The notes below the pieces were generated by a model. That model saw nothing but the letters and a program-made list of their open reading frames with translations, had not been told where the DNA came from and did not search any database. A stretch of 64,000 bases of DNA from Porticoccaceae bacterium (GTDB lineage Bacteria; Pseudomonadota; Gammaproteobacteria; Pseudomonadales; Porticoccaceae), in contig JAJFKC010000007.1 in assembly GCA_021773435.1 (NCBI GenBank), forward strand, positions 62,001 to 126,000. Direction: 5' to 3'. Position numbers and translations under genes: made by a program. This document shows positions 44,738 to 54,019 of the stretch, one piece after another (position 1 is the first letter of the stretch; every line of letters starts with the position of its first letter).

Positions 44738-44753
44738 TGGCACGCACTTTGCT
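44738..44753 (+). promoter_or_regulatory. Sigma-54 promoter of the porin/nas-type operon
   Basis: TGGCACGCACTTTGCT matches the sigma-54 consensus TGGCACG-N4-TTGCW at every fixed position. GG (44739-44740) and GC (44751-44752) have the required spacing. Transcription is expected to start at about 44764. No integration-host-factor or enhancer site was identified by eye. Confidence 0.85.
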
Positions 44754-44771
44754 CAACTAACATCGCAAGCT

Positions 44772-44800
44772 TTGACAAGGCGTTTAAACATTCTTGTCAA
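44772..44800 (+). promoter_or_regulatory. Leader hairpin P1 (8-bp stem)
   Basis: TTGACAAG (44772-44779) and CTTGTCAA (44793-44800) form a perfect stem with a 13-nt loop. It is in the place of the first hairpin of an ANTAR target, but the loop is not the canonical hexamer; inner pairing around gtttaaac may reshape it. Confidence 0.6.
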
Positions 44801-44801
44801 T

Positions 44802-44817
44802 TGGGCAGCGCAGCCCA
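44802..44817 (+). promoter_or_regulatory. ANTAR-type antiterminator hairpin (P2) with AGCGCA hexaloop
   Basis: TGGGC (44802-44806) and GCCCA (44813-44817) close the six-base loop AGCGCA (44807-44812). A at loop position 1 and G at position 4 are the invariant bases of ANTAR-protein targets. Its 3' arm shares four bases with the 5' arm of the terminator, so the two folds exclude each other. Confidence 0.75.
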
Positions 44818-44858
44818 CAGATCATGTCCTCCCCTTCAATGATCTGTGGGTTTTTTTT
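44814..44858 (+). terminator. Intrinsic terminator in the leader, upstream of the porin gene
   Basis: A perfect 12-bp stem (cccacagatcat at 44814-44825 with 44839-44850, loop of 13) is followed by eight T (44851-44858). It lies between the sigma-54 promoter and the porin start at 44952, with no gene ending before it on this strand. It is therefore an attenuator, or the end of a ~95-nt small RNA. Confidence 0.9.
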
Positions 44859-44951
44859 GCCTGACAATCGCTAGCCATTAAGTACGCCGACAAAGGCCAA
44901 GGCAGCGATTGAAGATTTATTGCAGTAATATTTAACACGAGGAGAGTTGGA

Positions 44952-46178
44952 ATGTTTATGAACGTTAAAAAAGCCATCCCAGTGGCCGTGAGCCTGGCCG
45001 CACTAGGTCTATCGGTATCTGCCCATACGGTGGCTGAACCTCTGGCAGAGGGTATCAGCAAAGCTCTCGATGAGAGCGATATTGGCCTGGAGCTACGCTA
45101 TCGTTATGAGTTTGTCGACCAGGACGGTGCGCCAGAAGATGCCGATGCATCGACCCTGCGTACCCGAGTCAATGTTAAATCTGGAAGCATAGGCGGATTC
45201 CAGGGCTTTATCGAGGTAGACAATGTCAGCTATGTAGGTAGCGACAACTTCAACAATACTGAAAACGGAGCAAGCGATTACCCGGTGGTCGCAGACCCAG
45301 ACTACACAGAGGTCAACCAGGCTTTTGTCAGCTATGCCTTTGACGACAAGAACAAAGCCACTGTGGGTCGACAACGGATCAATCACAGCGGACAACGTTT
45401 TCTCGGTGGTGTCGGCTGGCGTCAGAATGAACAAACCTTTGATGCCGCCAGAATGCAGCTGGCACCTGTTGAGGGCTTAACTGTCGACTACAGTTATATT
45501 TGGGGTGTTAATCGTATTTTTGGCCCAGAGGGCGCCGATGCAGATTTCGAGGGCGATAGCCATGCATTAATCGCCAGCTACCAGATTGCCGAGGGACATA
45601 GCATTTCTGCTTTTTCTTACCTCCTTGATCTGGAAGAAGCTCCCGCGCTATCCAGCAGCACCTACGGCCTCGAATATCAGGGCGCCTTCAAGGTAAGCGA
45701 AGGTATCGGCCTTGGTCTTAACCTGGCTTATGCGGAACAAAGCGATTATCAGGACAGCGCCCTGGATTATGACGCTGGCTATTATTTCGGCGAACTGAGC
45801 GCCAAATTCCAGGCGGTGAGTGTTGCCATCGGTTACGAAGTGCTGGAAAGCGACAACGGCGTCGGCTTTAAAACGCCTCTCGCGACATTACATAAATTCC
45901 AGGGTTTTGCCGACAAGTTTTTGGTGACTCCTGCGGGCGGTATCGAAGATAGTTATTTGAAAATTGTCACCAAAGTGGCTGGCGTCAAACTGATCGCCTT
46001 CTACCATGACTTTGAAGCCGAGACTGGCGGTATGGACTACGGCAGTGAATTTGATTTTATAGCAGCTTATAAATTCAACCAAAACTACAGCGTGCTGTTT
46101 AAATACGCAGCTTATGATGCTGATGACTTTGCCACCGATACCGATAAGGCCTGGCTAATGCTAAGCGCCGCTTTTTAA
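44952..46178 (+). CDS. Outer-membrane porin, alginate-export-like family
   Basis: A 408-residue outer-membrane beta-barrel. A signal peptide (MNVKKAIPVAVSLAALGLSVSAHTVAE) is followed by alternating strands with aromatic girdles, such as LELRYRYEFVDQDGAPE, TLRTRVNVKSG, VGRQRINHSGQRFLG and LHKFQGFADKFL, the last a typical segment of the alginate_exp family. The protein ends in Phe (WLMLSAAF), as outer-membrane proteins do. GAGGAG precedes the ATG. It is the first gene behind the sigma-54 promoter and attenuator and precedes NasT/NasS, so it probably passes the transporter's anion across the outer membrane rather than alginate. Confidence 0.88.
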   Translation: MFMNVKKAIPVAVSLAALGLSVSAHTVAEPLAEGISKALDESDIGLELRYRYEFVDQDGAPEDADASTLRTRVNVKSGSIGGFQGFIEVDNVSYVGSDNFNNTENGASDYPVVADPDYTEVNQAFVSYAFDDKNKATVGRQRINHSGQRFLGGVGWRQNEQTFDAARMQLAPVEGLTVDYSYIWGVNRIFGPEGADADFEGDSHALIASYQIAEGHSISAFSYLLDLEEAPALSSSTYGLEYQGAFKVSEGIGLGLNLAYAEQSDYQDSALDYDAGYYFGELSAKFQAVSVAIGYEVLESDNGVGFKTPLATLHKFQGFADKFLVTPAGGIEDSYLKIVTKVAGVKLIAFYHDFEAETGGMDYGSEFDFIAAYKFNQNYSVLFKYAAYDADDFATDTDKAWLMLSAAF

Positions 46179-46216
46179 GCATCACATGTTAAGCACGACT
46201 TGTTAAACACCACGTG
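46175..46216. repeat. Imperfect tandem repeat, 3 x 14 bp, across the porin stop
   Basis: ttaagcatcacatg (46175-46188), ttaagcacgacttg (46189-46202) and ttaaacaccacgtg (46203-46216). The porin stop TAA (46176-46178) lies in the first copy. Confidence 0.8.
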
Positions 46217-46219
46217 CGC

Positions 46220-46253
46220 CCTTAACAAGCTAAAGATCGCTTGCTTGTTAAGG
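46220..46253 (+). promoter_or_regulatory. Perfect 11-bp hairpin between porin and nasT
   Basis: ccttaacaagc (46220-46230) and gcttgttaagg (46243-46253) flank a 12-nt loop. No T-tract follows. Likely roles are 3'-end protection of the porin message or partial attenuation, making porin expression exceed that of the regulator genes. Confidence 0.65.
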
Positions 46254-46344
46254 CCATCCTGAATCAAGCGCTCTTTAATTACAGCCTATCCAAACATCGG
46301 GAATGGTAGCCTGTTGGATTTTTAGGTTTTATCGGTAAGCCCTA

Positions 46345-46950
46345 TTGCAACAGTCTGACAATAAAGATATCCGTGTGATGCTAGTTGACGACCACCCTCA
46401 GCGTGGTGCGATGGTCGAACAAGCATTAAATGCCAATGGCTTTGAGGTGGTATCGATGCTCACCACCGCGTCTGGTCTACTGTTCCAGATCCAGCAACAC
46501 AAACCCCATGTAGTGATAATTGATATTGAATCACCGGATAGAGACATACTGGAAAGCCTGTCAGTAATTAACCAACATAACCCGACACCCGTAGTGATGT
46601 TTTCCAACGAAGACGACCCCGCATTTATTCACCAGGCTATTCATGCTGGCGTCACAGCCTACATGATCGAGGATATTAACCCCGACAAAGTAAAACCAGT
46701 CATTGATGCCGCTATCGCCCAGTTCGAAATGTTCCAGGCTTTGCGTCGACAGCTCGATGACACTCAGCGCGAACTAAATGATCGCGACGCTATCGACAAC
46801 GCCAAACGTTTATTGATGAAGCATCAAAAAATATCGGAACCCGATGCCTACAAAAACCTTCGCACCCTGGCCATGAACAATAGCCAGTCTATCGCCACTG
46901 TCGCTCAAAATGTCATTGCCATTTTAGACAAAGCTAAACCAGAGAAATAA
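46345..46950 (+). CDS. nasT: NasT-like ANTAR-domain antiterminator
   Basis: A 201-residue response-regulator-like RNA-binding protein. The receiver domain has the acidic pair in VMLVDDHPQ (D15-D16) and probable acceptor D60 (VVIIDIES). After a coiled coil (FEMFQALRRQLDDTQRELNDRDAIDNAKRLL in outline) comes the ANTAR three-helix domain (~135-195: KHQKISEPDAYKNLRTLAM). NasT binds hexaloop hairpins in leader RNA and stops terminators forming; NasS holds it inactive when nitrate is absent. A matching leader lies upstream of the porin. The start is a TTG (46345) with a modest ggtaag. NasS begins 4 bp after its stop. Confidence 0.9.
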   Translation: MQQSDNKDIRVMLVDDHPQRGAMVEQALNANGFEVVSMLTTASGLLFQIQQHKPHVVIIDIESPDRDILESLSVINQHNPTPVVMFSNEDDPAFIHQAIHAGVTAYMIEDINPDKVKPVIDAAIAQFEMFQALRRQLDDTQRELNDRDAIDNAKRLLMKHQKISEPDAYKNLRTLAMNNSQSIATVAQNVIAILDKAKPEK

Positions 46951-46954
46951 ACTG

Positions 46955-48364
46955 ATGAACCCGAGTGACCCAGACTCCTCAGAACCAGGCTCCTCAAAAC
47001 AGGAGTCTTCTATAACAAGCTCTTCTATAACAAGCTCTTCTAAAACAGGCTGTCCTGAACACAGCCCTTCTAAAGCTGAGCTTCCTGAACAAAGGATGTC
47101 TGAACAAGGCCTTTCCCGACAAAGCATTTCTCGACAAGCTCAGCTAGACCAAAATCCCCCTGAAAAAATTCACCTGGATATCGGTTTTATGCGCTTAACC
47201 GACAGTGCGCCGCTGATCATCGCCCAGGAACAGCATTTCTTTGAACGTTTTGGTTTGCAGGTCAAACTCTGCCGCGAAGTCTCCTGGGCAAATATTCGCG
47301 ACAAAGTCGCTATCGGTGCGCTTGATGCTGCACAAATGCTGGCCCCGATACCGCTGCTGAGCACACCGGGACAGCAAGCTAACAATAACGCTTTTATTAC
47401 CGGGCTGATGCTTAGCCTAAACGGCAATGCCATCACGCTGGCGACCGGTACCATCACGCTGGCGACCGGTATATGTGAGCAACTCGATTTACCGACTGAT
47501 GATTCACCTTGTGATCGCCCAGAGCCAATACTCGCTGCTCAGCGTCTCAAACAATTGATAAGCGTCCAGCCCAAACAACTCACTCTCGCTACTGTCTATC
47601 CTCACTCCATGCATACCTTCCAATTGCGCCATTGGCTTGAATCAGGCGGTATTTGTCCGGATAAGGACGTACAAATCATCGTGCTACCGCCCGAACAAAT
47701 GGTGGAAAATTTAGCCCGAGGCGCCATAGATGGCTTCTGCGTAGGCGAACCATGGAATACCGCTGCTGTGCAGGCCGGCATTGGTTGCACTTTAGTCTCT
47801 GGCTATCAAATCTGGAATAATGCGCAAATCTGGAATAATGCGCCGGAAAAAGCTCTGGTAGTGAGCGAGCACTGGCATCGACAACACCCCGGCTCCCACT
47901 TGCGTCTGCGTATGGCCGTTATGGAAGCGGCAGCCTGGCTATCTGAGCCGCAAAATCGCCTGGCTGCGACTGACATTCTGGCCAGCAAAGAATATCTGGA
48001 TCTCCCCGAACACCTCATTAAACCGGCCTTGCTAGGAAATTTTCAGTACAGCAAGCAATGTGAGCCTGTGAGTAACCCAGACTTTATAGTCTTCCACCGT
48101 TACCACGCGGGCTTCCCATGGCGCTCAAGAGGCGAATGCCTGTTAAGACAAAGTTACGCCTTACTGGACAAAACTGCCGAGGATAACGAAATTAGCACTT
48201 TGGTAAAAAATGTCTATCGTACCGATCTCTATCGTCAGGCCGCATCTTTGCTTGATTACGCTTATCCCAATCAGGACGCCAAATCTGAAGGTCACCACAG
48301 TAGCGCTTACACCTTTGAGGAAGGTATCGAGCTGGGGGCTGATTTAATTCTAAGTGCTGAATAA
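46955..48364 (+). CDS. nasS: NasS-like nitrate/nitrite sensor protein
   Basis: A 469-residue soluble relative of the periplasmic NrtA/CmpA binding proteins, without a signal peptide, as expected for the cytoplasmic NasS that sequesters NasT. The binding-protein core starts at ~72: IGFMRLTDSAPLIIAQEQHFFERFGLQV, SWANIRDKVAIGALDAAQMLAPIP, LNGNAITLA, FCVGEPWNTAAVQAGIG. Residues 3-67 are an unusual array of 13 five-residue units (SSITS, SSITS, MSEQG, LSRQS, ISRQA). Two more in-frame tandem duplications sit in the core (21 bp at 47430 and 18 bp at 47807). It is coupled to nasT. Confidence 0.9.
   Translation: MNPSDPDSSEPGSSKQESSITSSSITSSSKTGCPEHSPSKAELPEQRMSEQGLSRQSISRQAQLDQNPPEKIHLDIGFMRLTDSAPLIIAQEQHFFERFGLQVKLCREVSWANIRDKVAIGALDAAQMLAPIPLLSTPGQQANNNAFITGLMLSLNGNAITLATGTITLATGICEQLDLPTDDSPCDRPEPILAAQRLKQLISVQPKQLTLATVYPHSMHTFQLRHWLESGGICPDKDVQIIVLPPEQMVENLARGAIDGFCVGEPWNTAAVQAGIGCTLVSGYQIWNNAQIWNNAPEKALVVSEHWHRQHPGSHLRLRMAVMEAAAWLSEPQNRLAATDILASKEYLDLPEHLIKPALLGNFQYSKQCEPVSNPDFIVFHRYHAGFPWRSRGECLLRQSYALLDKTAEDNEISTLVKNVYRTDLYRQAASLLDYAYPNQDAKSEGHHSSAYTFEEGIELGADLILSAE
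46961..47155 (+). repeat. 15-bp-period repeat encoding the NasS N-terminal extension
   Basis: Thirteen 15-bp units, each five codons, with Ser or Pro usually second and Gln, Thr, Pro or His usually fourth. Two units are identical at DNA level (tcttctataacaagc) and others have diverged. Confidence 0.85.
47430..47471 (+). repeat. 21-bp in-frame tandem duplication in nasS
   Basis: The unit at 47430-47450 is repeated exactly at 47451-47471, duplicating the peptide ITLATG-T/I within a conserved core strand (NAITLATGTITLATGI). Confidence 0.9.
47807..47842 (+). repeat. 18-bp in-frame tandem duplication in nasS
   Basis: caaatctggaataatgcg at 47807-47824 is repeated exactly at 47825-47842, duplicating QIWNNA. 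In NrtA the corresponding site reads once ([10 protein letters not shown]). Confidence 0.9.
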
Positions 48365-48628: not shown

Positions 48629-48644
48629 TGGCATATAAATTGTA
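48629..48644 (+). promoter_or_regulatory. Sigma-54-like element upstream of nrtA
   Basis: TGGCATATAAATTGTA has the -24 GG and the correct 12-base spacing, but GT replaces the -12 GC. It is a weak match; its value is that it sits the same distance before a hexaloop hairpin as the strong site before the porin. Confidence 0.35.
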
Positions 48645-48688
48645 TTACTAAGTATCGTACCAGCAACTGCACCGCCCCATCTTTAGCT

Positions 48689-48707
48689 TCATGGCAACGA
48701 GGCCTGA
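48689..48707 (+). promoter_or_regulatory. Candidate second ANTAR-type hairpin, AACGAG hexaloop
   Basis: TCA-(T)-GGC and GCC-TGA close the six-base loop AACGAG (48696-48701) with one bulged T. A1 and G4 match the ANTAR rule. Its 3' GCC also serves as the 5' foot of the terminator-like hairpin that follows. Confidence 0.5.
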
Positions 48708-48755
48708 CAATCACAACCAATTGATGCTTGTGAACGTTGGGCTTTTTTATTTTTT
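48702..48755 (+). terminator. Terminator-like hairpin upstream of nrtA
   Basis: Stem segments GCC/GGC, CAA/TTG and TCACAA/TTGTGA, separated by 3-nt bulges, enclose an 11-nt loop and are followed by T6-A-T6. It ends 127 bp before the nrtA start, with no stop codon just upstream to explain it. Confidence 0.5.
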
Positions 48756-48881
48756 ACGAGCGCATATTTTTAATACCGTATTTTGTGGAACAGATATTTT
48801 ACAAAAATTTATACAGCATTATGTTGCAACACTTTCCAAAAATTTTATGACAACAGCATCATCACAGAGGAAGCTTTATCC

Positions 48882-50315
48882 ATGAGTAGCAAAGCAAAAA
48901 TATTGATTTCTCCAACATTATCCCATTGTCGAAAAATGGCTTCTTCAATTGTGTTCACCGGCGCAATAGCGATAGCCTTTGCAGGCTCCTTGCTGTCCTT
49001 CACTGCCTGGTCAGCCAGCGATATTGGTGAGCCAGAAAAAGAGGATCTCAAATTCGGCTTTATCAAACTCACCGACATGGCGCCCCTGGCTATTGCCTAT
49101 GAAAAAGGTTATTTCGAAGACGAGGGGCTTTACGTAACACTAGAAGCCCAGGCCAACTGGAAAGTTCTGCTCGACGGCGTAATCGATGGTCAACTTGACG
49201 GAGCTCATATGCTTGCCGGGCAGCCCCTGGCCGCGACTATCGGCTTTGGCACCAAGGCCCATATCATTACGCCATTCAGCATGGATTTAAATGGTAATGC
49301 CATCACCGTATCCAACAGTATTTGGGAACAAATGAAGCCCTATGTTCCCCTTCAGGCTGATGGCAAACCGGTTCACCCTATTAAAGCCGATTACCTGAAA
49401 CCGGTGGTTGATAAATACCGGGACGAAGGCAAGCCTTTTAAAATGGGGATGGTCTTCCCGGTATCGACCCATAACTACGAATTGCGTTACTGGCTGGCAG
49501 CGGGCGGAATCAACCCCGGTTACTACGCCCCATCGAGAGGTGATATCAGTGGCCAGCTCAATGCCGAGGTGCTGCTCTCGGTAACACCACCACCGCAAAT
49601 GCCCGCCACCATGGAGGCGGGTACTATTTTTGGTTACTGCGTCGGCGAGCCATGGAACCAACAGGCTGTCTTTAAAGGCATCGGGGTGCCAGTCATAACA
49701 GATTACGAAATCTGGAAAGATAACCCCGAGAAAGTCTTCGGTATCACCAAAGAGTTTGCAGAAAAATATCCCAACACCACGACTCGCATGGTCAAAGCCC
49801 TGATTCGCGCTGCGGCATGGCTCGACGCTAACGACAACGCTAACCGTCCGGAAGCAGTAAAAATACTCTCGCAATCCAATTATGTGGGCGCAGATTACGA
49901 AGTAATCGCCAATAGCATGACCGGTACCTTTGAATACGAGAAAGGCGATAAACGTGCGGTGCCCGACTTCAATGTGTTTTTCCGCTACAACGCCACCTAT
50001 CCCTACTACAGTGATGCCATCTGGTATCTCACGCAAATGCGTCGCTGGGGCCAAATCGACGAATTCAAACCCGATAGCTGGTACATCGATGTAGCCAAAT
50101 CGGTCTACCGTCCGGATCTTTATTCGACCGCAGCCAAAGCCTTGATAGCCGATGGCGCACTGAAGGCATCAGATTTCCCTGACCTTGATAAAGAAAGCGG
50201 CTTTCGTCCACCCCAGGACACCTTTATCGACAACATTGCCTATGACGGCTCTAAACCCAACGCCTATATCGATATGTTCCCTATCGGGCTGAAAGCGAAA
50301 GAGGCCGCTAATTAA
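48882..50315 (+). CDS. NrtA/CmpA-type ABC transporter substrate-binding protein
   Basis: Periplasmic binding protein of the nitrate/nitrite/cyanate/bicarbonate family, 477 residues. I start it at the ATG 48882 (SD agagga), which puts a signal segment at once: [27 protein letters not shown]. The core begins [26 protein letters not shown], then [30 protein letters not shown] and [21 protein letters not shown]. It is homologous to NasS over the whole core. Nitrate is the most likely ligand because of NasTS; bicarbonate or cyanate remain possible. It follows a 517-bp gap with a candidate leader. Confidence 0.9.
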
Positions 50316-50341: not shown

Positions 50342-51661
50342 ATGCCATACCAGGCGGTGTCGCATCCGACTGCACAAACACAGGGTATGGATTTATTTAG
50401 GCGACCCCCACCTCGCTTAAGCATTACTGATATTGAAATGACTAACACTGACATGACTGGCACAAACATGACCGACATAAGCGTAAACGATTTAAATAAC
50501 CCAGCTGCCGCTCTAGATAAAACCGCAAAAACGAAGGAGAAAAAAGCCGTGACTCCCCAAAGTTCCGGGACGGATTCAATTGTAAAGGCACCTTTAGACA
50601 TACCCCCAGCATCAAAAACCACGCCAAAAAATAGCACACCTATTTATGTTCGTATAAACAAAGTGCTGGATCTTATTGGCTTCACCTGGTTTATACCCCT
50701 AATTAAATTATGTGGTGGTGAAAGCCCGAAAACTCAATTTAGAGATTTACTCACCGCCATCGGCGCACCGGTGGTGTTTTTTATAATCTTCCTGATGTTC
50801 TGGAGCTGGGGCGCCGCCCAGATTGAAACCAGTCTTGGCGTTATTCCGGGGCCTGCTCAGGTTTATAAAGAAGCTCAGGGCTTGATGGAGGAACATACTG
50901 CCGAACGGCAGAAAGAAATCGCCTTCCAGGAGCGTCAGGAAAAACGTAATGTAGCTAAGCTAGAAAAGAATCCAGACGCCGTTATCAAAACCCGAACCTA
51001 CACGGGTAAGGCAACCTATATAGATCAAATTTTTACCAGCCTGTTTACCGTGTTTACTGGCTTTATCATTGCAACCCTGGTCGCCGTACCTCTGGGTATT
51101 ATCTGCGGGATGAGCCCTATTTTTAATACCGCGATAAATCCTATTATTCAAATATTTAAACCGGTATCACCTCTGGCATGGCTACCTATTGTGACCATGA
51201 TTGTGAGTGCCTTATATGTAACAAGCGACGATTCCTGGTTTGATAAATCATTTCTGACCTCAGCCATCACCGTAACCCTCTGCTCGCTTTGGCCAACACT
51301 GATCAATACCTCGGTGGGTGTATCGTCCATTGATAAAGACCTGGTCAATGTCGGCAAGGTACTCAAACTGAGCAAGATGACCCAGGTCACTAAAATCATT
51401 TTACCCTCCTCCTTACCCCTGATATTTACAGGTTTGCGGCTATCCCTGGGCGTTGGCTGGATGGTCTTGATCGCGGCTGAAATGCTCGCGCAAAATCCGG
51501 GCCTCGGTAAATTCGTTTGGGATGAATTTCAAAACGGCAGCTCCCATTCTTTAGGCCGCATCATGGTGGCGGTATTCACCATCGGCTTGATCGGCTTCGC
51601 CCTCGACCGAATTATGATGACTTTACAAAAACTATTTTCTTTTGGTGATACCAATATCTAG
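50342..51661 (+). CDS. NrtB-type ABC transporter permease
   Basis: Inner-membrane permease of the NrtB/CmpB/TauC family. Membrane helices begin near residue 135 (VVFFIIFLMFWSW). A cytoplasmic or loop stretch with charged residues (~165-215) precedes the BPD_transp_1 core; the coupling EAA-like loop is VGKVLKLSKMTQVTKIILPSSLPLIFTGLRLSLG. The first ~105 residues are low-complexity and include a 15-bp repeat. Two starts compete: the ATG at 50342 (439 residues) directly after nrtA, and a GTG at 50549 (370 residues) with a perfect AAGGAG nine bases upstream, which better fits the family length. Confidence 0.88.
   Translation: MPYQAVSHPTAQTQGMDLFRRPPPRLSITDIEMTNTDMTGTNMTDISVNDLNNPAAALDKTAKTKEKKAVTPQSSGTDSIVKAPLDIPPASKTTPKNSTPIYVRINKVLDLIGFTWFIPLIKLCGGESPKTQFRDLLTAIGAPVVFFIIFLMFWSWGAAQIETSLGVIPGPAQVYKEAQGLMEEHTAERQKEIAFQERQEKRNVAKLEKNPDAVIKTRTYTGKATYIDQIFTSLFTVFTGFIIATLVAVPLGIICGMSPIFNTAINPIIQIFKPVSPLAWLPIVTMIVSALYVTSDDSWFDKSFLTSAITVTLCSLWPTLINTSVGVSSIDKDLVNVGKVLKLSKMTQVTKIILPSSLPLIFTGLRLSLGVGWMVLIAAEMLAQNPGLGKFVWDEFQNGSSHSLGRIMVAVFTIGLIGFALDRIMMTLQKLFSFGDTNI
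50438..50497 (+). repeat. 15-bp-period repeat in the nrtB N-terminal extension
   Basis: Four five-codon units (MTNTD, MTGTN, MTDIS, VNDLN), each starting atgac or similar. The period is the same as in the NasS extension three genes upstream. Confidence 0.7.
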
Positions 51662-51673
51662 GAGTTCATGATC

Positions 51674-53335
51674 ATGGCATTACTTGCCCTTAAAAATGTT
51701 GGCAAATCCTATGGTCAAGGCGCTGACAAAACCGCCGTGCTCAAAGATATTAATCTGGAAATAAACGAAGGCGAGTTCGTCGCCATCGTCGGTTTTTCCG
51801 GCAGCGGTAAAAGCACATTAATTTCGGCTATTGCGGGGTTGATAGACGCTGACGAAGGTTTAATCACAAAAGACGGAAAAGCCATCAGCGGCCCCAGTGC
51901 TGACCGCGGTGTGGTGTTTCAGAATTACTCACTGATGCCCTGGCTCACCGTGCAGGGTAACGTCGCACTCTCGGTTGACCAGATATTTTCTGACCGACCA
52001 AAAAATGAGCGGGGAGAGCGTGTCCTAAAATACGTTGCTATGGTGGGCTTAAGCCCAGCCCTGCACAAACGACCGGCCGAGCTGTCCGGCGGAATGCGTC
52101 AACGGGTCAATGTCGCCCGAGCCCTGGCAGCCAGCCCCGACATCCTCCTGCTCGATGAACCCCTCAGCGCACTGGACGCCCTCACCCGCGCCAACCTTCA
52201 GGACGAAATACTGCAAATATGGGAGCACGAAAAGAAAACCGTTATCCTTATCACCAATGATGTTGACGAAGGCCTGATTATGGCCGATCGCATTATTCCG
52301 CTAAAACCTGGGCCTAACGCCACCTTCGGGCCAGAGTTTAAAATTGATCTGCCGCGACCACGTGATCGTAGCGCCATGAATCACGACCCCGCCTTCAAAG
52401 CACTTCGCGCTGAGGTAACCCAGTATCTCATGGATATCGGCATCCAGGACAGCAGTAATGAGGCGACAGTTAAACTACCCCCGGTAAGACCCAATACCAG
52501 TATCGACTGGAAACTCGATACCACAGCTCTGAAGCCAGAAACCGGTGGTTTTATTAACGAACGTTATCTCGAGTTCACTGGCCTGGATAAAATTTATCCG
52601 ACACCTAAAGGGCCAATTGCCGTTGTCGAAGACTTTAATTTAAAAGTCAGGCAAGGCGAGTTCATCTCCCTTATCGGTCACTCTGGCTGTGGTAAATCTA
52701 CCGTACTGTCCATGTGCGCCGGACTTAACGAAATCAGTAATGGCGGGATTATTCTCGACAATAAAGAAGTTGATGCCGCCGGGCCAGATAGAGCCGTGGT
52801 GTTTCAAGCGCCTAGCCTTTTCCCCTGGCTCACCGCTATCGAAAACGTGGCGCTGGGAGTAGAAAGTGTCTACCCACACGCACAGAAAAGCGAGCGTGCC
52901 GATATCGTCGAATACTATTTAACCCGGGTCGGCCTCGGTAACGCTCTGCACAAAAAAGCGGCTGATCTTTCCAACGGCATGCGCCAAAGGGTCGGTATTG
53001 CTCGGGCTTTTGCCCTGTCTCCCAAGCTACTCTTGCTCGACGAACCCTTTGGCATGCTCGATTCACTCACCCGCTGGGAATTGCAGGAAGTACTCATGGA
53101 AGTATGGGAGCGCACCAAACTGACGGCGGTAATGGTCACTCATGATGTAGATGAGGCCATTCTATTGGCCGACCGCGTCGTGATGATGACCAATGGGCCT
53201 CAGGCAACCGTGGGCAAAATTATCGATATTGATCTACCCCGCCCGCGCACTCGCAAGGCCTTACTTGAGCATCCTGATTACTATGATTATCGAGAGAGTT
53301 TGATTTCTTTTCTGGCTGAATGTGATCAGCATTGA
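51674..53335 (+). CDS. Fused NrtC/NrtD-type ABC transporter ATPase (two nucleotide-binding domains)
   Basis: Two ABC ATPase domains in one chain of 553 residues. Domain 1: Walker [12 protein letters not shown]-loop [11 protein letters not shown], signature LSGGMRQR, Walker [13 protein letters not shown]. Domain 2: [41 protein letters not shown]. The H-loop histidine is present in domain 2 (VTHDVDE, about residue 490) but is Asn in domain 1 (ITNDVDE, about 195), so the two sites may not be equal. The NrtC solute-binding C-terminal domain is missing. The ATG at 51674 has AGGAG nine bases upstream; another ATG lies two codons earlier. Confidence 0.92.
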
Positions 53336-53395: not shown

Positions 53396-54019
53396 TTATT
53401 GGTTCGCCGTTTCGAAATCTTTAAGCGAAGCCATCACAACATCGAGGTCACACAACAGGCCGTCCTGTACGGAGTAAATCCACCCGTGAACCGACAGGGG
53501 CTGGCCGCTGCGCCAGGCATTTTGGACCACCGTGCTACTGCATACGTTTAACACTTGTTCAACGACATTCTTCTCACAAAGGCGATCAAGCTTGTCACCC
53601 TCATTCGCACAGGCATCAATCTCAGTGCGATAATAACGATAGACATCGCGAATGTGGCGCAGCCAATTATCGATCAAACCGTGTTCCTTATTTTCCATGG
53701 CAGCCTGCACGCCACCACAGCCGTAATGTCCGCAGACGATAATGTGCTTAACCTTTAGGACTTCGACGGCGTATTGCACCACCGACAGGCAATTTAAATC
53801 GGTATGAACCACAACATTGGCGATATTGCGATGAACGAACACTTCGCCCGGTGGTAAATCGATAATCTGATTGGCTGGCACCCGACTATCGGAACAACCA
53901 ATCCACAAATAATCCGGTGATTGTTGCCGGGAGAGCTTACTAAAAAATTCCGGGTTATCACTGGCTACGCGCTTGGCCCAACGCTTATTACTATCTAGCA
54001 GGCTTTCTAATTCATTCAT
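53396..54019 (-). CDS. can: Beta-carbonic anhydrase
   Basis: Zinc enzyme interconverting CO2 and bicarbonate, 207 residues. Zinc ligands are Cys42 and Asp44 in WIGCSDSRVPANQ, and the His/Cys of CGHYGCGGVQAAM; R46 completes the Asp-Arg dyad. This is the Can (YadF) type. It is encoded convergently with the NrtABC-like operon, 60 bp apart, so it is not co-transcribed. Its closeness is worth noting only because CmpABCD relatives of this transporter import bicarbonate. Confidence 0.95.
   Translation of the reverse strand: MNELESLLDSNKRWAKRVASDNPEFFSKLSRQQSPDYLWIGCSDSRVPANQIIDLPPGEVFVHRNIANVVVHTDLNCLSVVQYAVEVLKVKHIIVCGHYGCGGVQAAMENKEHGLIDNWLRHIRDVYRYYRTEIDACANEGDKLDRLCEKNVVEQVLNVCSSTVVQNAWRSGQPLSVHGWIYSVQDGLLCDLDVVMASLKDFETANQ

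Follow-up and report, generated by a model that had tools for sequence, protein, structure and literature searches.

The leader preceding an outer-membrane porin gene of a Porticoccaceae bacterium very probably carries a NasS-NasT antitermination switch, in a variant form with a single hexaloop, that would act on the genes porin-nasT-nasS, and a second attenuator of this kind stands before nrtABD. This reading derives from comparative sequence analysis; the binding of NasT, the nitrate signal, NtrC-type activation and nitrate as the substrate of the porin are proposed by homology. Both leaders are contained in a window of 64 kb, the whole stretch of DNA that we analysed, and their elements, as well as the genes from the porin to nrtD/C, all lie on its + strand.

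As proposed in the initial annotation, the porin gene is preceded by a sigma-54-driven attenuator of the NasT-type ANTAR class, a claim now backed by conservation, covariation, and co-occurrence and co-loss with NasT (see below). The -24/-12 promoter TGGCACGCACTTTGCT (44738-44753; predicted +1 at ~44764) was correctly described as perfect: it is an exact consensus, and a consensus scan of the 64 kb retrieved an exact match to TGGCACGNNNNTTGCW at this position only. The looser consensus TGGCAYRNNNNTTGYW has two exact matches in the 64 kb, compared with 0.27 expected, at 44738 and 48629, and both precede an attenuator. A sigma-54-like site occupies the equivalent place in nearly all the leaders from relatives. 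A search for NtrC activator sites gave none above chance and none convincing.

The sequence and the folding of the leader also bear out the hairpins and the 12-bp terminator with eight T annotated earlier, and the porin start at 44952 is downstream of all of them. The 5' hairpin, in the P1 position (44772-44800), consists of TTGACAAG-N13-CTTGTCAA, with 8-9 bp and a 13-nt loop that is not an A1/G4 hexaloop (-8.3 kcal/mol, z about -2.6). It is followed by the P2 antiterminator hairpin TGGGC[AGCGCA]GCCCA (44802-44817), whose hexaloop does contain A1 and G4, and by an intrinsic terminator (44814-44858) with arms CCCACAGATCAT (44814-44825) and ATGATCTGTGGG (44839-44850) and the T8 at 44851-44858; the terminator folds with -22.1 kcal/mol (z -5.8), a value that none of the shuffles equals. 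The overlap claimed between the 3' arm of P2 and the 5' arm of the terminator exists, although it spans 4-5 nt rather than precisely four bases. Folded alone, the 5' part of the leader forms P1 and P2, and forcing P2 in the fold costs ~9 kcal/mol, with loss of the base of the terminator and the upper 8 bp still pairable; the antiterminator would thus need help to win, which fits a protein-dependent switch. When we scanned for hexaloops overlapping a terminator, the window gave two strong hits, at 44807 and 48696, and five shuffled windows together gave a single weaker one. The architecture of the porin leader is not due to chance. Rfam contains no family for this leader RNA.

The porin gene (44952-46178; Alginate_exp, PF13372) is followed by nasT (46345-46950), which is the next gene and not, as annotated before, two genes downstream; it encodes a receiver plus ANTAR protein, the sole ANTAR protein of the genome. 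Then come nasS (46955-48364), for an NrtA-like ligand sensor (NMT1_2), and a second sigma-54/ANTAR attenuator (48629-48749) that was absent from the initial annotation. It comprises a promoter TGGCATATAAATTGTA (48629-48644; predicted +1 at ~48655), found in the same place in relatives, an antiterminator hairpin GGC[AACGAG]GCC (48693-48704; match to RNA model R1, E 4e-4), and a terminator with a T-run (48701-48749) that overlaps this hairpin. The downstream gene nrtA (48882-50315), for a nitrate-type binding protein, is better started at the ATG at 48882 than at the TTG at 48783, because the coding region then begins 3' of the second leader. It is followed by the permease gene nrtB (50342-51661), whose best NCBIfam model is TIGR01183, below the cut-off, and by nrtD/C (51668-53335), for a tandem ATPase that scores above the cut-off of TIGR01184 (604 bits). 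The porin switch had been supposed to govern the operon; this holds for porin-nasT-nasS but not for nrtABD, whose own promoter and attenuator indicate that the porin-leader switch is not the sole controller of the whole operon. A covariance search, as recommended initially, with an RNA model built from 59 leaders and run on the genome recovered precisely these two places (E 9e-6 for the porin leader and 4e-4 for the nrtA leader); a third match (G000:C15) was partial, with E 0.15, and was discarded.

We compared 60 NasT loci from Porticoccaceae, SAR92, Microbulbifer and Halieaceae; most of these relatives are metagenome-assembled genomes, and the locus sets of our separate surveys overlap in part. 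The majority of the loci contain, in this order, a sigma-54 site, hexaloop, terminator, porin, nasT and nasS, and in most of them the importer is likewise preceded by a sigma-54 site, a hexaloop and a terminator. Since our first scan required A1 and G4, we rechose the leaders by their best terminator alone. Even so, an overlapping hexaloop hairpin was present in all 43 distinct porin leaders, with A1 and G4 in 42 of them, and in 31 out of 37 nrtA leaders (A1/G4 in 28). The overlap of hexaloop and terminator, whose absence from related genomes would have spoken against the initial proposal, is therefore kept in 43/43 distinct porin leaders. Across 59 leaders, the terminator is 91.7% paired and shows compensatory changes at 8 of 10 pairs, with 155 double-change cells versus 52 in shuffles and a covariation of 0.676 versus 0.253. 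The P2 stem covaries too, with part of its pairing being a product of the scan selection.

The deduced proteins agree with the proposed roles. With numbering transferred by alignment, the EutV RNA-contact positions K154, E165 and M177 are invariant in NasT from 12 relatives, and R147 and Y169 vary, with Y or H at 169. The closest matches of both NasS and NrtA are binding proteins of the nitrate/bicarbonate type. NasS matches NrtA/NrtC/CmpA chains in the PDB, and its N-terminus, read directly, shows no hydrophobic stretch; the locus thus has the hallmarks of a NasS-NasT pair, a receiver plus ANTAR NasT beside an NrtA-like NasS with no apparent export signal. A PDB sequence search with the porin gave no match. 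Its predicted structure is an 18-stranded barrel (AlphaFold2, mean pLDDT 81.7), and the nearest solved folds in a comparison of predicted structure are the Occ/OprD channels, followed by AlgE. Judged by its operon context, the porin probably serves as a channel through which scarce nitrate enters, and outer-membrane permeability would be placed under anion control. No viral copies of NasT were found.

We considered whether the leader could be a plain terminator, or the 3' end of an sRNA, with a chance hexaloop and with the porin expressed from another promoter. The terminator is indeed strong on its own, and one relative (G004, locus L126) retains it in the absence of hexaloop and nasT: there, the nasTS-nrtABD block is gone between the porin and the carbonic anhydrase, and the porin leader has lost both the hexaloop and any recognisable promoter, so that the porin may be silent or otherwise driven. 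Against this explanation stand the near-invariant A1/G4 hexaloop hairpin described above and its perfect co-occurrence with nasT. In a survey of the family's porin loci, the attenuator and an adjacent nasT were both present at 28, both absent from 26 and never found one without the other; many loci of the latter group encode other porins of the family and do not count as 26 independent losses, and the sharper case is that of porins with a sigma-54 promoter and no attenuator, which occur in G016, G021, G070, G085, G119 and G121. Genome searches detected no ANTAR genes in these genomes or in G004, all of which kept the porin and lack the switch, and did detect one in three sister control genomes. 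The whole attenuator is therefore lost in genomes without ANTAR genes, and we regard a plain terminator as very improbable. Only slightly less improbable is a switch that senses another small anion, such as cyanate or bicarbonate, instead of nitrate. A carbonic anhydrase gene (53396-54019) adjoins nrtD, and NrtA- and CmpA-type proteins are related; however, NrtA ranks solved nitrate-transport proteins above the bicarbonate-binding protein CmpA, and the ATPase passes the nitrate model. In addition, nirBD and a gene for a nitrate-reductase-like molybdoenzyme lie 20 kb downstream (L162 2237-2252 and 2357-10532), in a region that also contains a PhzF-like gene and one for an Fe-S protein, and in Microbulbifer the gene behind the second attenuator is narK instead of nrtABD. 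In these species the inner-membrane carrier has been swapped while the switch was kept, as was the porin in most of them, so the targets remain nitrate importers.

A more substantial alternative is that the leader is a canonical dual-hexaloop target whose P1 is merely hard to recognise, for instance because NasT reads a loop of other size or sequence. The initial annotation had found the lack of the canonical hexaloop in P1 odd; the hexaloop is certainly absent, but this is no quirk of one leader and is fixed in the clade. With canonical criteria (A1/G4 hexaloop, stem of at least 4, linker of at most 30), P1 was found in 0 of 90 distinct clade leaders, compared with 1.9 in shuffles, whereas the same code detected it in 14 of 42 leaders from other Gammaproteobacteria (1.5 in shuffles), or in 21 of them when either A or G was accepted as the first base. 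In favour of a hidden P1, leaders with enough space often retain a 5' hairpin with a different loop (mean z -1.8 in porin leaders); this hairpin covaries in a SAR92 subset and may therefore have a structural function, and HTCC2207 has ATGTC[TTTGAT]GACAT, with G4 only. Nevertheless, loop size and sequence differ among relatives, and the distance from the predicted start to P2 is below 14 nt in 7 leaders and at most 17 nt in 16, with some at 4-17 nt; three short leaders have a possible 3-bp GAC[ATTGCA]GTC at their extreme 5' end. The absence of room for P1 is firm only for the Microbulbifer-type leaders, which have 4-5 nt and a promoter match below the average. P1 is likewise lacking in several further families of the order, indicating that the trait extends beyond the clade. 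On balance we judge a hidden P1 unlikely, and lean, from the leader sequences, towards a single P2 hexaloop being sufficient for ANTAR antitermination in vivo, in which case the two-hexaloop requirement of EutV would not be general.

Under the single-hexaloop switch that we favour, sigma-54 polymerase would start near 44764, as deduced from the -24/-12 site, probably under nitrogen limitation. With no NasT bound, the terminator at 44814-44858 would form and the RNA would end after ~95 nt. Binding of nitrate or nitrite to NasS would release NasT, and its ANTAR domain would hold the P2 hexaloop (44802-44817), leaving the base of the terminator unpaired and allowing read-through into porin-nasT-nasS. 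The similar promoter and attenuator at 48629-48749 would gate nrtABD, and NasT would in this way control an outer-membrane channel, its own synthesis and an inner-membrane importer. Because the leader has only one hexaloop, NasT would have to act at P2 without recruitment by a P1 hexaloop. Sigma-54 would represent the nitrogen-limitation gate and NasS-NasT the nitrate gate, by homology with Paracoccus denitrificans, in which the NasS-NasT complex dissociates with nitrate or nitrite and NasT binds the nasA leader (PMC3795266). Since nasTS lie behind their own attenuator, the first NasT is expected to come from leakage, followed by amplification by nitrate. The nirBD operon has a sigma-54 site upstream and no attenuator, and we found no third target of the switch before nirB, including in the RNA-model search of the genome; with two switches and a single ANTAR protein, NasT would probably control uptake and its own synthesis, and not reduction.

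The P. denitrificans nasA system likewise combines a receiver-ANTAR NasT, a NasS sensor and leader hairpins before nitrate genes, of which hairpin I is needed for induction (PMC3795266, PMC5424462). There, however, nasTS lies apart from the nasA leader, on its upstream side, and nitrate reduction is what the system targets (PMC3795266, PMC5424462), whereas at the present locus a porin comes first among the targets, nasTS follow the switch that they work and the importer comes second. In Klebsiella, the nitrate-assimilation operon behind the nasF leader (cited in PMC3369931 and PMC5424462) likewise couples Ntr control of initiation to nitrate-responsive antitermination, although its NasR is a one-component NIT-ANTAR protein and nasF is reported to be dual-hexaloop.

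In published work the ANTAR target has two A1/G4 hexaloops, and deletion of P1 abolishes induction (PMC3369931); the proposed model is that P1 recruits the ANTAR dimer, which then contacts P2, with both hexaloops regarded as obligatory in vivo (PMC8934654). The Porticoccaceae leader shares with EutV/eutP (PMC3369931, PMC8934654) the A1/G4 hexaloop, the 3' arm of P2 lying over the terminator and the RNA-contact residues, but it has the P2 hexaloop only and a sigma-54-type promoter. Of the features expected of an ANTAR antiterminator (Ramesh 2012), we thus found the overlap of P2 hexaloop and terminator and a cognate ANTAR protein, and no P1 hexaloop; as the second hexaloop was sought and is lacking, we consider the switch a variant that would work like a dual-hexaloop ANTAR target and not a standard member. 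Given that EutV needs both hexaloops in vivo (PMC3369931), a leader with one might give only a weak response or depend on an additional partner. Single-hexaloop sites have been anticipated where the polymerase time limit is absent, with a call for bioinformatic work on them (PMC8934654). The present leaders are natural transcription-coupled attenuators without a P1 hexaloop, and their -24/-12 promoters indicate the 5' end of the RNA, which makes the idea of a recruitment hairpin directly testable. The type of switch was already known, and the loss of one of two supposedly indispensable hexaloops appears to be the new aspect. The loci also tie an outer-membrane channel, a candidate nitrate channel, to the nitrate regulon of common marine bacteria (SAR92, Porticoccus); we found no paper making this link in the open-access literature, and novelty is claimed within that literature.

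Some further features were observed in and around these loci. An inverted repeat with no T-run (CTTAACAAGC...GCTTGTTAAG, 46213-46257) separates the porin from nasT and is perhaps an mRNA-stabilising or processing element that sets the porin above nasTS. The loop of the porin-leader terminator (44826-44838) is C-rich, CCUCCCC-like, as also in near relatives (L003, L004, L005, L007, L009 and L012), and resembles some sRNA loops; it is absent from the nrtA leader and not retained elsewhere in the family. An anti-Shine-Dalgarno role for it was rejected, because it is unconserved beyond near relatives and no pairing with the porin ribosome site appears in the fold. A narK-like gene, with 55% to the Microbulbifer narK, is divergent from the nirBD region. 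In family f197 of the order (L167, L169-L171, L173, L175, L177, L178, L188-L191 and L195), a dual-hairpin leader is flanked by nirBD and a nasA-like gene; its P1 loop reads GACGAN or AAAGTT, and the linker, at 26-30 nt, is unusually long. Finally, in one subclade (L045, L051, L053, L060, L063, L068 and L069) the porin leader starts with a segment (GACATTGC...) complementary to its own genome's nrtA leader, which was not seen in the window; the complementarity is perfect over 7-10 nt, with matching changes in some, and could reflect trans pairing or an inverted DNA site.
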